Positions 45,133 through 50,823 of a stretch of 52,317 nucleotides of DNA are shown piece by piece. The position numbers and the translations under genes were made by a program. Source of the DNA: an uncultured Verrucomicrobiales bacterium (GTDB lineage: Bacteria; Verrucomicrobiota; Verrucomicrobiia; Verrucomicrobiales; Akkermansiaceae); NCBI GenBank assembly GCA_937969495.1, contig CALBVY010000020.1, forward strand, positions 1 through 52,317, read 5' to 3'. Position 1 is the stretch's first letter. Each line of letters begins with the position of its first letter. The notes beneath the pieces are model-generated. The model saw only the letters and a list, made by a program, of their open reading frames with translations. It was not told the origin of the DNA and searched no databases.

Positions 45133-46131
45133 TTAGTCCGTTTCTGCCCGGGTATCACGTGTGAGCAGTTCCTCCAGAGCATCTGCCGCAGATTTATGTT
45201 CATATAAAATTTCATAAACAGCATCAATAAGCGGAGTGCGGATGTTTGCCTTATGGCCAGCTTCATGAATGGAGAGGGTGTTAGGAACTCCTTCAGCCAC
45301 CATGCCGAGGTTAGCAATGATGTCATCGAGTTTACCACCTTTCCCAAGTGCTTTACCGACACGGTTATTGCGCGAGTGTGGGGAGTAGCAAGTAGCCATG
45401 AGATCACCTACACCAGAGAGCCCGATGAATGTTTCCATTTTCCCACCTAGCCGAGTGCCCAAGCGTGTCATCTCTGCTAGTCCACGGGTGACAAGTGCCG
45501 CGATGGCATTATCACCGAGGCCTAGTCCGTCTGCTATGCCAGCGGCGATACCAAAGATATTTTTCATGGCAGCTCCTAGCTCAATGCCTGCCACGTCATC
45601 ACTTGTGTAACAGCGGAAGGCATTGGTAGTAAAAATTTTCTGCAGCTGCTGAGCTAGTGCGTGGTCTTGGGCGCCAATGACAGCACAGGTGGCAAGTCCC
45701 TTGCTGACTTCCTCGGCGTGATTAGGCCCAGAGAGGACAGCGAGAGGGTTTTCTGGAAGGTGGAAGTGAATGAGCTCACTCATACGCACACCGGTGTGCG
45801 CTGCGATGCCTTTGGCGCAGGAGACGAGAATAGTATCCTTGGGGAGGTTAATTTCTGTCAATGATTGAGCCGTAGCTTCTGTAGCAGATGTCGGCACTAC
45901 AAAGAGCACCAATGGATAGTCAGCGGCCTTGGTAAGGTCTGTGCTGGCGATGATATTTGTAGGTAGTGGCTGATCTGGAAGGTAGTGATGATTGGTGTGT
46001 TGGCTATTGATCTCCGCAGAGATCTTTTCATTGCGCCCTATGACACAGACCTCATCGAGAGTGTTGGCGAGCAGAGTGGCGAGGGCTGTCCCCCACGAGC
46101 CTGTGCCGAGAATGGCTGCGCTTTTGATCAT
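45133..46131 (-). CDS. gpsA: NAD(P)-dependent glycerol-3-phosphate dehydrogenase
   Basis: The 332-residue cytoplasmic enzyme makes sn-glycerol 3-phosphate from dihydroxyacetone phosphate for phospholipid synthesis. The N-terminal nucleotide loop is ILGTGSWGTALATLLA. SCAKGI, LSGPNHAEEVSKG and AAMKNIFGIAAGIADGLGLGDNA include the conserved Lys residues of the active site, and LSGVGDLMATCYSPHSRNNRVG is the substrate loop. The start codon overlaps the stop of plsY (ATGA-type 4-base overlap), so the two are translationally coupled. Confidence 0.96.
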   Translation of the reverse strand: MIKSAAILGTGSWGTALATLLANTLDEVCVIGRNEKISAEINSQHTNHHYLPDQPLPTNIIASTDLTKAADYPLVLFVVPTSATEATAQSLTEINLPKDTILVSCAKGIAAHTGVRMSELIHFHLPENPLAVLSGPNHAEEVSKGLATCAVIGAQDHALAQQLQKIFTTNAFRCYTSDDVAGIELGAAMKNIFGIAAGIADGLGLGDNAIAALVTRGLAEMTRLGTRLGGKMETFIGLSGVGDLMATCYSPHSRNNRVGKALGKGGKLDDIIANLGMVAEGVPNTLSIHEAGHKANIRTPLIDAVYEILYEHKSAADALEELLTRDTRAETD

Positions 46132-46829
46132 TTCTTTTTCTTGGTAAATTGGTGTTCAGTGCCGTTTTTTAAAGCAATGATATTCGAGCGGTGTCGCCAT
46201 GTTGCTAGAAAGGCAATTACGATGGAAAATACAAAAAGTGGTTTGTTCCAGGTGCCATCTGCTAGGTAGCCATGCCTGTAAGATCCATATAGAGTGACAA
46301 AGGGAACGGCCAGAGCCGTGCCAATACTGGCAATGGATACGTAGCGTGTGGTGAAAAAGAAAAGTAACCAGATGATGAGTAAGATAACTACCCCCACTGG
46401 CATGAGAGCTACGAGCACTCCTCCTGATGTAGCAATACCTTTCCCTCCTTTGAATCCAATCCACGGAGAGTAATTATGGCCAAGGATAGCAGCTAGGCCT
46501 GTTAGTATGATTAAGGTTTGAGCCTTCCACGCATCGATCACAGGGAAAGTGGTGCTTATGCCGTGCAGTGTATCGAGCGACATCTGTGGGTTTTTCCCTT
46601 CAATGAGGCAGACGCTGATGGCGAGTAGTGTGGGGACAAAGCCTTTGAGGAAATCGAGGATGAGGCAGGCGATACCGTAGGGCTTACCGATGATGCGGAG
46701 CACATTCGTCGCTCCGATATTTCCTGATCCATGTTCGCGGATATTGACACCCTTTGCTTTGGCGATCAAAAGGCCAAAGGGGATAGAGCCGGCAAAAAAG
46801 GCAATGAGTGGTGGAATCCAGAGTGGCAT
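46128..46829 (-). CDS. plsY: Glycerol-3-phosphate acyltransferase PlsY
   Basis: The 233-residue inner-membrane acyltransferase uses acyl-phosphate to acylate glycerol 3-phosphate. Motifs are SIPFG, then GSGNIGATNVLR and GHNYSPWIGFKGGKGIATSGG, the three conserved loops of the family. It has about seven hydrophobic segments. The frame is open upstream to 46916, but the ATG at 46829 (MPLWIPPLIAFFAGSIPFG) gives the family start. It overlaps gpsA by 4 bases. Together the two genes make lysophosphatidic acid; the acyl-phosphate synthase PlsX is not in this window. Confidence 0.94.
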   Translation of the reverse strand: MPLWIPPLIAFFAGSIPFGLLIAKAKGVNIREHGSGNIGATNVLRIIGKPYGIACLILDFLKGFVPTLLAISVCLIEGKNPQMSLDTLHGISTTFPVIDAWKAQTLIILTGLAAILGHNYSPWIGFKGGKGIATSGGVLVALMPVGVVILLIIWLLFFFTTRYVSIASIGTALAVPFVTLYGSYRHGYLADGTWNKPLFVFSIVIAFLATWRHRSNIIALKNGTEHQFTKKKK

Positions 46830-46927
46830 GATGATGTGAGTAGGTGACTCGTATGTTGAGTTTACTTTGGTAATTAAAAAATCCAATGGCAATGTTGTTT
46901 CCTTCGGTGGAAACATGACCCCGTAAA

Positions 46928-46969
46928 TGCCAGATGCCGGCCCACTTTAAAATGGGCCGGCATCTGGCA
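46928..46969. repeat. 17-bp perfect palindromic hairpin overlapping the tRNA-Ser 3' end
   Basis: Bases 46928-46944 are the exact reverse complement of 46953-46969, separated by an 8-base AT-rich loop. The right arm includes the CCA end and discriminator of tRNA-Ser. There is no T run on the minus strand, so if it terminates the tRNA transcript it does so by the hairpin alone. Confidence 0.85.
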
Positions 46970-47052
46970 GAGGGGGTGGGATTCGAACCCACGGTGACTT
47001 GCGCCACGCCGGTTTTCAAGACCGGTGCATTCGACCACTCTGCCACCCCTCC
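46965..47052 (-). tRNA. serX: tRNA-Ser (anticodon TGA)
   Basis: Reading the minus strand, the gene starts GGAGGGGTGGCAGAGTGG and has a D-arm, an anticodon stem CCGGT/ACCGG with loop CTTGAAA (TGA), the long variable arm of class II tRNAs, a T-arm GTGGG-TTCGAAT-CCCAC, a 7-bp acceptor (with a G-U pair at position 1) and an encoded CCA. The long variable arm and TGA anticodon identify serine (UCA and UCG codons). No gene overlaps it. Confidence 0.95.
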
Positions 47053-47191
47053 GTGGTGCAATCAGATTGCGGTCTACGAGGAACTTTCATGATTCGCTGC
47101 TAATTTGCAAGAAGAGTTTACATCGATTTGCAGATTTTATGATTGGTTCAAGGCTTGCTTGAAGTGGCGGCGCCGATTAAGAAGGGTGCTT

Positions 47192-48118
47192 ATGAGTAAT
47201 GTCGTTATTTTATTTTCCGGTCAAGGTGCACAGAAGGTAGGTATGGGTAAGGATTTGGTGGATAGCTATTCTGTTGCCAAAGATCTTTTTGCAAAAGCGG
47301 ACGAGGCTTTAGGTTATGCTCTCAGTGAGATTATGTTTACTGGTCCAGATGATCAGCTGACACGCACAGCTTACTGTCAGCCTGCACTGTATTTGCATGG
47401 TCTTGCGTGTTTGGCGGTTTTAAAAGAGAAGGTGCCTGCGTTGAATCCTGTAGCAGCGGCAGGTTTATCTCTTGGCGAGTTTACCGCCCATGCCGCCGCA
47501 GGGACATTTGATTTTGCCACGGGGTTGAGTCTAGTTTCTCAACGTGGTGTATTTATGGAGGAGGCTTGTGAGGCTACTGATGGAGCGATGGCCGCTATGA
47601 TTGGTGGTGATGAAGCGGCGGTAGAGAAGCTGGCTGCGGAGTGCGGTGTGGATGTGGCGAATTTTAATGCCATTGGGCAGATTGTTCTCTCTGGCAGTGA
47701 ACAGGGGGTGGATCAGGCAGTGGCTGGAGCGAAGGCTGCGGGTATCCGCATGGGGAAAAAGCTTAACGTCGCCGGAGCCTACCACTCGCGCTTGATGCAG
47801 AGTGCTCAGGATAAACTGGCTGCAGTGCTGGGGGATACTGAGATGTCAGTGCCCTCGATTCCTGTTATTTGTAATTATGGAGCCCGTGAGGTGAGTGGTG
47901 CGGATGATATTAAATCGATGCTAGAGCAGCAGGTGACTGGCTCAGTGCGCTGGACGGCATCCATGCAGAAGCTCATTGCGGATGGATATACGACCTTTAT
48001 TGAGCTTGGGCCAGGTAAGGTTCTGGCGGGTTTGATGGGTAGAATTGATAAGACGGTTAAGGTGATTTCCATCGAAGATACCGAGAGTTTGAATGCCGCG
48101 GTGGCGGAACTTGCATAA
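47192..48118 (+). CDS. fabD: Malonyl-CoA-ACP transacylase
   Basis: The 308-residue enzyme loads malonate onto ACP for fatty acid synthesis. The N-terminal FSGQGAQKVGMGKDL, the nucleophile S93 in GLSLGE, R118 (QRGVF) and H198 (AGAYHSRLM) form the active site, and ELGPGKVLAGLMGRI ends the protein. The open frame extends to 47105, but the ATG at 47192 (MSNVVILFSGQG) fits the family. It stands alone between two tRNA genes, whereas fabD usually lies in a fab cluster; acpP, fabH and fabG are not in the window. Confidence 0.96.
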   Translation: MSNVVILFSGQGAQKVGMGKDLVDSYSVAKDLFAKADEALGYALSEIMFTGPDDQLTRTAYCQPALYLHGLACLAVLKEKVPALNPVAAAGLSLGEFTAHAAAGTFDFATGLSLVSQRGVFMEEACEATDGAMAAMIGGDEAAVEKLAAECGVDVANFNAIGQIVLSGSEQGVDQAVAGAKAAGIRMGKKLNVAGAYHSRLMQSAQDKLAAVLGDTEMSVPSIPVICNYGAREVSGADDIKSMLEQQVTGSVRWTASMQKLIADGYTTFIELGPGKVLAGLMGRIDKTVKVISIEDTESLNAAVAELA

Positions 48119-48193: not shown

Positions 48194-48270
<77 letters not shown>

Positions 48271-48286: not shown

Positions 48287-48312
48287 AGCCTCACTTTATG
48301 TGGGGCTTTTTT
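48287..48312 (+). terminator. Intrinsic terminator of tRNA-Asp
   Basis: An 8-bp stem (48287-48294 with 48300-48307, one G-U pair, loop of 5) leads into TTTTTT. The T run touches the stop codon of the convergent DUF2288 gene, so the two transcripts overlap tightly. Confidence 0.85.
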
Positions 48313-48667
48313 ATGTTGATGGCTTGGCGTATGGTTGCATGAGCACGAAGGGGGAGACGACCAAGGCGGTAAATTCTTGAGGGTTCTCCTCCCACCATTG
48401 TTCATGGAGTTCTGAGGGTTTCACCAGATCACCAGCTTTGAGCCAGGCTGTTATTTGCTCTTTATCATCTGCGGTCACTGCTTGGCCAACTTGGGTGATT
48501 TTTAAGCAGGGATCTACATAGATGAGTGCTCCAGATTTGTAGTGAGGCTTCAGATACTCCCAGTCTACTACGCCAGTGTATTTCTGGAGTTTTTCTTCCG
48601 TGCTCTGTGCATCTTCTCCTACCATGCCGTAGTTCATTTCTTCTGATGCTTGGTGTGGATCGCTCAT
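48311..48667 (-). CDS. DUF2288 family protein
   Basis: The 118-residue soluble protein shows the DUF2288 pattern: VDWEYLKPHYKSGALIYVDPCLKITQVGQAVTADDKEQITAWLKAGDLVKPSELHEQWWE, then FTALVVSPFVLMQP. The family is small, acidic and of unknown function. Its gene ends at the terminator of tRNA-Asp and is divergent from the glycosyltransferase/phosphoesterase gene. Confidence 0.75.
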   Translation of the reverse strand: MSDPHQASEEMNYGMVGEDAQSTEEKLQKYTGVVDWEYLKPHYKSGALIYVDPCLKITQVGQAVTADDKEQITAWLKAGDLVKPSELHEQWWEENPQEFTALVVSPFVLMQPYAKPST

Positions 48668-48819
48668 GGTTCGATATGTAAAAGGGGCGGTTACTCAGCG
48701 TGTGGCTGGGCGTTTCTGTGGCAAAAGTGCTACAGAACAAAGATGCGCGTCAATGCTGCACTTACTGTAAAGCACTACCAATGAATCTCCATGAGCAAAA
48801 AGTAGAGACGGCTATCAAG

Positions 48820-50823
48820 ATGCGTATTGAAATAGTGACGGATACATATTGTCCTGATGTGAATGGAGTGGCGATGACATTGGGGCAGCTGGTCGATGGT
48901 CTTCGTTCCTTTGGTCATCTCGTTTATATCATTCACACTGGGGGTGCTGGGGGGAAGGGTGAAAGCTCGGTGAAATCGGTGCCTCTTCCAGGCTATTCGG
49001 AGGTGAGGGTGGGTTTGCCAGGGAAGGGGAAGCTGAGTAAGCGCTGGAGTCGGAAGCGTCCAGATGTTGTCTATGTTGCTACGGAGAGTCCTCTTGGTAT
49101 GTCTGCTATTAAAGTCGCTAAAAAGATGGAAATCCCTGTGGCTGCTGGGTTTCACACGAATTTTCATCACTACATGAAGCAGTATAAGTTGGGTAAAATG
49201 CAAGATACCGCTTTGCGCTATTTACGCCGTGTGCATGGGCTTGCTAGCTGTACCATCGCACCCTCACCGGATGTGCGTGATATGCTTGTCCGTGATGGAT
49301 TTCAGAATGTTTATTTGTTAGGTCGTGGAGTAGATGTAGAGCTTTTTGATCCTCAGAAACGTTGTGCCAAGCTGCGGATGGAATGGGGAGCTCGTGCGGA
49401 GACACCTGTGGTGATGGTGGTGGGGCGTGTGGCTCCAGAAAAAAATATGGAGCTGGCCATTGAAGCGTTTGATCTGATGCAGAGATCTGTTCCTGATGTT
49501 CGGTGTGTGATTGTGGGTGATGGGCCTAGCCGTGAGCTCTTAGAGCGGAACAATCGGCATATCCATTTTGCTGGAGTGCAGCGTGGTGAGGCACTTGCGC
49601 GGCATTATGCCTCTGCGGATGTTTTACTTTTTCCTAGTGAGACTGAAACATTTGGCAATGTTTTGTTGGAAGGGATGGCTAGTGGGATGATTACGGTAGC
49701 TTATGATTATGCTGCGGCGCGGTTACATACGAGGCATGGCGAAAATGGTTTAGTAGCACCTAAGGGGAATCCTCATGCTTTTCTTAAAATGGCTCTTCAG
49801 GCAGTGAAAATTAATCAGCTGGAACCTCTGCGTGCTCAGGCTAGAGAGAGCACTCTTAAGCTGGGCTGGGGAGAGATTGCCGAGAGCTTTGAGTCATGTC
49901 TGATGACGATTGTGCGTGATGCTGGCATGCCTATTGGCCAGAGTCGCCGGAGGAGGAAGCTTAGCGTCCGCACTTTGTTTTTATCAGACATTCACCTCGG
50001 TACGGATGCTAGTAAGGCGCGCGAAGTGATCGATGTTTTAAAACATACGCGCTGTGAACGTATTGTGCTAAATGGTGATATTATTGATGGCTGGGCGCTG
50101 AAGCGTGGGGGGAAGTGGCGTAGTATTCACACCCGTGTTGTGCGCACGGTGCTTAAAAAGTTAGAAAAAGAAAAAACTGAGATTATTTACCTGCGCGGTA
50201 ATCATGACGACTTTATGACGACGTTCCTGCCCATTGCTCTGGGAAAGTTAAAGTGTGTCTCGGAATACATTCATACCACCCCTGAGGGAGAGCGATATCT
50301 CGTGTTGCATGGTGATGGCTTTGATAGCGTCTCCACTGGGCATAAGTGGATAGCGGTGTTAGGATCGATTGGTTATGATACCTTGTTAAATGTTAATCGC
50401 ATTTATAACCGATACCGCAAGTGGCGTGGCAAGGATTACTACTCGGTGAGTAAAGCGATTAAGGCCCGCGTAAAGTCAGCGGTAAGCTTTGTGGGGAGGT
50501 ATCAGGAGAAGCTTGTTGAGCTAGCTGTAAAACGAAAATGTTCAGGTATCATCTGTGGTCATATTCATACTCCTGCCGATGAGATGATTGATGGAATCCA
50601 TTATCTCAACAGTGGGGACTGGGTGGAGACGCTGAGCTGTATCATTGAGAATCAAAACGGAGGATTTGAAATTCTCTATTACGATGAGTTTTTATCCCGC
50701 ACTCTGCCTGAACAGGCTGCGGGGCATCTAGAGCAGCCTTGTTTTGATCGCGTGCTTAACGAGAACATTGCTGACCGTTCCATGGTTGATTCCTCGCATC
50801 GTGCTGACATGCACGCATCCTAG
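48820..50823 (+). CDS. Fusion of GT4 glycosyltransferase and LpxH-like metallophosphoesterase
   Basis: The roughly 667-residue protein has two enzymes in one chain. Residues 1-365 are a GT4 glycosyltransferase: MRIEIVTDTYCPDVNGVAMTLGQL, GFHTNFHHYMKQY, GRVAPEKNMELAIEAF and FPSETETFGNVLLEGMASG (the E-x7-E donor motif). After a basic linker (GQSRRRRKLS), residues 375-630 are a calcineurin-like phosphoesterase of the UDP-2,3-diacylglucosamine hydrolase type: SDIHLG, NGDIIDGW, RGNHDDF, LHGDGFD and CGHIHTP. In other genomes these two families sit in adjacent genes. The start could also be 48781 or 48700; 48820 begins exactly at the GT4 domain. It probably modifies an envelope lipid. Confidence 0.85.
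   Translation: MRIEIVTDTYCPDVNGVAMTLGQLVDGLRSFGHLVYIIHTGGAGGKGESSVKSVPLPGYSEVRVGLPGKGKLSKRWSRKRPDVVYVATESPLGMSAIKVAKKMEIPVAAGFHTNFHHYMKQYKLGKMQDTALRYLRRVHGLASCTIAPSPDVRDMLVRDGFQNVYLLGRGVDVELFDPQKRCAKLRMEWGARAETPVVMVVGRVAPEKNMELAIEAFDLMQRSVPDVRCVIVGDGPSRELLERNNRHIHFAGVQRGEALARHYASADVLLFPSETETFGNVLLEGMASGMITVAYDYAAARLHTRHGENGLVAPKGNPHAFLKMALQAVKINQLEPLRAQARESTLKLGWGEIAESFESCLMTIVRDAGMPIGQSRRRRKLSVRTLFLSDIHLGTDASKAREVIDVLKHTRCERIVLNGDIIDGWALKRGGKWRSIHTRVVRTVLKKLEKEKTEIIYLRGNHDDFMTTFLPIALGKLKCVSEYIHTTPEGERYLVLHGDGFDSVSTGHKWIAVLGSIGYDTLLNVNRIYNRYRKWRGKDYYSVSKAIKARVKSAVSFVGRYQEKLVELAVKRKCSGIICGHIHTPADEMIDGIHYLNSGDWVETLSCIIENQNGGFEILYYDEFLSRTLPEQAAGHLEQPCFDRVLNENIADRSMVDSSHRADMHAS

Follow-up and report, generated by a model that had tools for sequence, protein, structure and literature searches.

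PlcP, a phosphoesterase (phospholipase C) of phosphate starvation, and Agt, a glycosyltransferase, are separate proteins in the published pathway as it stands in the accessible text of PMC8528852, PMC4796936 and PMC9239053. According to the accessible text of PMC4796936, plcP often lies beside agt, and one verrucomicrobial PlcP occurs among single-cell genomes; this single-cell PlcP and the absence of the protein in methanotrophs are how the Verrucomicrobiota figure in the accessible parts of the PlcP literature (PMC4796936, PMC9239053). With regard to the transferases, UDP-glucose was the donor in the assays of Agt1 and UDP-glucuronic acid in those of Agt2, diacylglycerol being the acceptor (PMC8528852, accessible text). 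No report of a PlcP-Agt fusion was found in the open-licence full-text literature, subscription papers lying mostly outside that search. The word 'fused' is absent from the accessible text of PMC4796936, PMC9239053 and PMC8528852, and 'fusion' appears a single time in each of two papers, where it names an instrument.

The DNA analysed here, referred to as the window, is a stretch of 52,317 nucleotides from an uncultured Verrucomicrobiales bacterium of the Akkermansiaceae. Known PlcP proteins are free-standing, as are the known Agt proteins of P. aeruginosa and, by their papers' descriptions, of A. tumefaciens and SAR11, whereas in the window an Agt-like domain forms the N-terminal half and a PlcP-like domain the C-terminal half of one predicted protein. 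We consider it probable that this fused gene encodes a single-chain PlcP-Agt enzyme of membrane-lipid remodelling, which would lead from phospholipid via diacylglycerol to glycolipid, both activities being predicted from likeness to known proteins. The PlcP-Agt pathway is already known; new is the presence of PlcP and Agt in one chain. The features of the gene are as follows.

48820..50823 (stop included), + strand: fused GT4 glycosyltransferase and PlcP-like phosphoesterase, 667 aa (open frame, fused homologues)
48820..49929, + strand: GT4 (Agt-like) half, residues 1-370 (Pfam, motifs, Agt2 likeness, fold)
49423-49446, + strand: GRVAPEKN, motif of the GT4 half
49645-49671, + strand: E-x7-E, motif of the GT4 half
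49930..49965, + strand: short basic linker, about residues 371-382 (between the Pfam domains; low-pLDDT block 371-380)
49966..50709, + strand: PlcP-like phosphoesterase half, residues 383-630 (Pfam, motifs, tree, fold)
49984-49995, 50074-50094 and 50197-50211, + strand: metal-site motifs SDIH, GDIIDGW and GNHDD, respectively
50308-50325 and 50557-50568, + strand: further metal-site motifs HGDGFD and GHIH, respectively
50710..50820, + strand: C-terminal tail, residues 631-667, variable and predicted to be disordered (alignment; pLDDT < 50)

The gene is a single uninterrupted open reading frame without internal stop or frameshift. Further in-frame starts lie upstream of the ATG at 48820 (at 48781 and 48700); homologues begin at MRI or MKI matching position 48820, which is therefore the best start. 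Pfam GT4 models matched residues 14-341, the three best with 94-100 bits, and the Metallophos model (calcineurin-like phosphoesterase) matched residues 384-585 with 44 bits (cut-off 21.5). The motifs of the GT4 half are complete (GFHTNF at residues 110-115, GRVAPEKN at 202-209 and E-x7-E at 276-284), as are those of the phosphoesterase half (SDIH at 389-392, GDIID from 419, GNHD at 460-463, HGD at 497-499 and GHIH at 580-583). The fused gene is solitary: a divergent DUF2288 gene (48311-48667) precedes it, and a convergent gene for a DEAD-box helicase follows. Judged by eye from the list of open reading frames, gpsA-like and plsY-like glycerolipid genes on the minus strand and a fabD-like gene on the plus strand occupy positions 45133-48118 of the window, 0.7-3.7 kb upstream of the fusion, and two tRNA genes lie in between (Ser, 46965-47052; Asp, 48194-48270).

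A first search for relatives gave 30 loci, 20 of them fused in one frame, six with separate genes and four with one half only. Bacterial genomes were also scanned with an alignment of the phosphoesterase, and among the best 80 of 547 loci, in which several genomes are common to the first search, 23 were fused, 40 had a separate transferase gene upstream and 17 showed no match in the flank examined. The 23 include L047, a locus with the same sequence as L141 (genome G200), in which the transferase has nevertheless decayed. Among the genomes with a fused gene are those of Luteolibacter marinus, Haloferula, Persicirhabdus sediminis and Rubritalea marina, as well as many Akkermansiaceae MAGs. Within the Akkermansia family, to which the window belongs, the phosphoesterase half was matched in 131 and the transferase half in 128 of 260 genomes. 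Pairing was counted on 128 full-length phosphoesterase matches in 127 genomes, seven shorter rows being left out: 114 were fused to the transferase in a single frame, two were adjacent to it but broken or in another frame, and the remaining 12 had no adjacent transferase match. Moreover, the gap between the transferase and phosphoesterase matches was a multiple of three in 115 of 116 cases. These counts clearly demonstrate that the joining of the two halves in one frame across the family is far beyond chance. Together with the intact frame in the window they also exclude an assembly or sequencing frameshift that joined two genes, the artefact which the earlier note had singled out. The claim of that note that the gene is a genuine fusion of a GT4 glycosyltransferase and a phosphoesterase, both keeping their active-site motifs, thus holds for the window, and the fusion is indeed found in other genomes, as the note had proposed to look for.

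One of the family genomes carrying the fused gene (G062; identity 48% for the transferase and 59% for the phosphoesterase) is by our reckoning that of Akkermansia muciniphila ATCC BAA-835. In sister families the transferase and phosphoesterase are separate, often overlapping genes, in agreement with the earlier description of the two parts as adjacent genes elsewhere. Outside the family, only two of the 97 phosphoesterase-bearing genomes in a phylum sample of 387 had frames longer than 600 aa, and neither proved to be a further fusion: the transferase match was absent from the first (G334, locus L137) and lay in another frame in the second (G313, locus L138). It was likewise absent from G610 and G607, and G622 (443 aa) was left out of this reading.

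In a tree of 59 rows, hand-chosen from 128 and rooted on PlcP, 26 family rows formed one clade (85/90) nested in separate-gene lineages, and the sister group of this clade comprised nine rows, all of them separate-gene or single-half loci. When all 128 rows were used with E. coli LpxH, a lone branch of great length, as the root, the fused rows did not form one clade (nine label changes). A fused gene of another family (L022:169-2388), joined via a 73-residue Pro/Ala-rich linker, fell outside the Akkermansia-family clade, and its grouping with the family was rejected (AU p 0.002), the evidence for this locus being one fragmented genome. We conclude that the fusion arose once in the Akkermansia family and, apparently, once elsewhere. 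In several separate-gene lineages the transferase end nearly coincides with the phosphoesterase start, which provides a way in which the fusion can arise. Since joining is easy where genes nearly touch or overlap, as in the sister lineages, it is possible, though in our judgement not probable, that co-transcribed plcP-like and agt-like genes were joined neutrally and that each half works alone on bulk membrane lipid, with no hand-over of diacylglycerol. Neutral joining would also suit the later loss or degradation of one half in some fused lineages, but is harder to reconcile with both halves staying in one frame in 114 of the 128 family matches, with 42 of the 43 chains scored as fused keeping their transferase motifs, and with the apparently independent second fusion and its long linker.

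All 12 family genomes in which no transferase match adjoins the phosphoesterase were inspected; six showed remains of the transferase and six no clear remnant. Three loci (L140, L143 and L144) retain a transferase scar of about 20-45 N-terminal residues and a fourth (L141) two transferase pieces. In L146 and L147 the length of the transferase is kept, at 26% and 23% identity, respectively, and the first glutamate of E-x7-E is missing as judged by eye. These six loci, in all of which the phosphoesterase is intact, look like cases where a domain was lost naturally once the fusion had formed. Homologues with an inactive half, which the earlier note had held to count against its reading, are hence seen in part of the family, while the transferase of the window is intact. 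The converse is seen in at least one locus, L020:1477-2715, in which the transferase is kept and the frame ends just inside the phosphoesterase, the rest of which was not found in the locus. The phosphoesterase motifs were kept in 124 of 124 homologous rows, a set in which inclusion itself required the first motif and from which the frameshifted L070 was dropped. As the transferase has been lost more often than the phosphoesterase, the latter is the half more often kept; it is also evident from these losses and degradations that the coupling is not indispensable. In another genome, a second, partial phosphoesterase match (G035:C17:22072-22371, query residues 158-257) lies about 1.2 kb downstream of an intact fused gene and is perhaps a decayed duplicate.

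The phosphoesterase half is 40.6% identical to an S. meliloti protein encoded beside AHL-synthase and LuxR genes, which from these neighbours we take to be PlcP (SMc00171). The second reference is a P. aeruginosa protein with 41.9% identity to the half. Its gene has a four-base overlap with a GT4 gene, past which there is a gene for an adenylate cyclase; the two overlapping genes are presumably PA3219-PA3218 (PlcP and Agt1). It should be underlined that the reference genes were named in part from the genes beside them. The phosphoesterase comes first in PA3219-PA3218, whereas the fusion has the reverse order, transferase first; the phosphoesterase-first order is also found in Sphingomonas and in Parabacteroides, where the neighbouring transferase gave no match to that of the window. 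The S. meliloti and P. aeruginosa reference proteins share 46.6% identity over 253 columns, which agrees with the 46% given for PA3219 and S. meliloti PlcP in the accessible text of PMC8528852. Identity to E. coli LpxH was 21.8%. A 28-row tree grouped 16 verrucomicrobial with five PlcP or PlcP-like rows (95/94; 21 rows), and the five LpxH rows stood apart (100/98). All 16 verrucomicrobial rows, including the window, and all five PlcP rows carry GNHD, and all five gammaproteobacterial LpxH rows carry GNRD; GNHD also occurs in one Bacteroides LpxH-like row. The half thus shares with PlcP its clade, its metal-site motifs and GNHD, and differs from LpxH in clade, in GNRD and in identity.

What the half has in common with LpxH is the superfamily, the fold and the automatic annotation, homologues being labelled UDP-2,3-diacylglucosamine diphosphatase. 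The NCBIfam LpxH model gave a weak match of 35-37 bits, and a search of PDB sequences returned chance-level hits only. When the phosphoesterase was modelled alone (pLDDT 79.3, pTM 0.74), its closest match among solved folds was LpxH (Z 18.6; 183 residues aligned with an rmsd of 3.5); judging from the model, we read this as a shared fold and not a shared function. Two long helices, at about chain residues 500-571, make up a lid of the phosphoesterase that is modelled with low confidence. These likenesses would favour a true LpxH with a lipid A or LPS glycosyltransferase as its fusion partner, a reading which nevertheless appears very unlikely. The match misses the 134-bit cut-off of the LpxH model, and the two PlcP reference genes score equally low (38 and 55 bits; E. 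coli LpxH, 364). Moreover, the genome of the window has matches to LpxI (155 bits, cut-off 25) and to LpxB (295 bits), so that the lipid A step, which uses UDP-diacylglucosamine, has another candidate, and the neighbours in relatives are diacylglycerol genes (see below). LpxH function was rejected on the separate clade, the missed cut-off, GNHD and LpxI, and on sequence grounds the half is PlcP-like rather than LpxH, which corrects the label on the homologues. The LpxH-like function proposed in the earlier note is therefore not upheld, and UDP-diacylglucosamine, its suggested substrate, becomes unlikely. The broader proposal of a single lipid pathway, in which a phosphate is removed and a sugar added, appears right in outline, with PlcP in the place of LpxH, and diacylglycerol, the other candidate, fits as the intermediate.

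With regard to the transferase half, the closest of the sequences compared was a P. aeruginosa GT4 gene (42.7% identity over 370 columns, 292 bits) that comes straight after plcR and a gene for a phospholipase C, and is therefore taken by us to be PA0842 (Agt2). The gene taken as Agt1 (PA3218) gave 32.9% and 144 bits; both share the GT4 family and E-x7-E with the window. In the whole-chain model (pLDDT 84.4, pTM 0.61), in which the relative placing of the two halves is not fixed, the N-terminal half aligned with MshA, BshA and PimA across some 330-350 residues (Z 33-38). These enzymes have the GT-B fold in common with it but are mostly only 17-27% identical (PimA 25-27%, from the fold tables) and use different acceptors. 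The two best NCBIfam models were N-acetylglucosaminyl phosphatidylglycerol synthase (118 of 480 bits) and alpha-monoglucosyl-DAG synthase (110 of 400 bits). Such matches, with PimA among the best solved ones, would suit a reading in which the head group is taken from another phosphorylated lipid, such as phosphatidic acid or an isoprenoid phosphate, and the transferase makes a different glycolipid, for instance a sugar-phosphatidylglycerol or a PimA-like product. We regard this as unlikely, as both model cut-offs are far off, the gene taken as Agt2 gives the same two models, and the phosphoesterase lies in the PlcP clade. For the single-chain PlcP-Agt enzyme, glucuronic acid is weakly favoured over glucose as the putative donated sugar, since among the relatives compared the nearest seems to be Agt2. 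The genome of the window encodes one protein of the UDP-sugar dehydrogenase family, which also serves other sugars.

In 13 of the best 80 of 547 loci, mostly from Opitutae, the separate transferase and phosphoesterase genes flank two more genes. The families were scanned in L094, and the remaining 12 loci were found by tblastn to match that locus.

Cassette loci (e.g. L094:737-4804): L092, L093, L094, L105, L106, L110-L113, L116-L119
Order of genes: Agt-like GT4, MGDG_synth-family transferase, YegS/DAGK-type lipid kinase, PlcP-like phosphoesterase

The best NCBIfam model for the MGDG_synth-family gene was diglucosyl diacylglycerol synthase (138 of 500 bits). The four genes look like a diacylglycerol branch-point operon of Opitutae, and since all four would use or make diacylglycerol, they lend independent support to diacylglycerol as the shared intermediate. 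As to regulation, the genome of the window contains PhoU, and no Pho-box-like site was found within 300 bp of the fused gene, the consensus used being proteobacterial and possibly not applicable here. By analogy with the PlcP-Agt systems of other bacteria, the fused gene may be induced by phosphate shortage.

We infer the following course for the single-chain PlcP-Agt enzyme. The C-terminal half would strip the phosphate head group from a membrane phospholipid, as PlcP does, to give diacylglycerol, and the N-terminal GT4 half would then attach glucuronic acid or glucose, donated by the corresponding UDP-sugar, yielding a phosphorus-free glycolipid. Through the fusion, both steps would take place at the same membrane site in a fixed ratio of 1:1, with diacylglycerol presumably handed over from one half to the other. 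Counting against this reading are the negative Pho-box result, the transferase-first order, LpxH as the closest solved fold of the phosphoesterase, and the family members in which one half has been lost or degraded. Such a bifunctional phospholipid-to-glycolipid enzyme, passing diacylglycerol between its active sites, may be an ancestral trait of the Akkermansia family, a tentative proposal whose chances we place slightly short of even. With both steps in a single chain, the coupling is directly testable by comparing the fused with a split enzyme.

In Verrucomicrobiota the fusion can serve as a marker of lipid remodelling that is simple to score. Its presence in the presumed type strain of A. 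muciniphila suggests that the envelope of this prominent gut species contains a glycolipid still to be characterised. If the proposed activities are true, A. muciniphila would gain a route to a phosphorus-free envelope glycolipid, perhaps one containing glucuronic acid.
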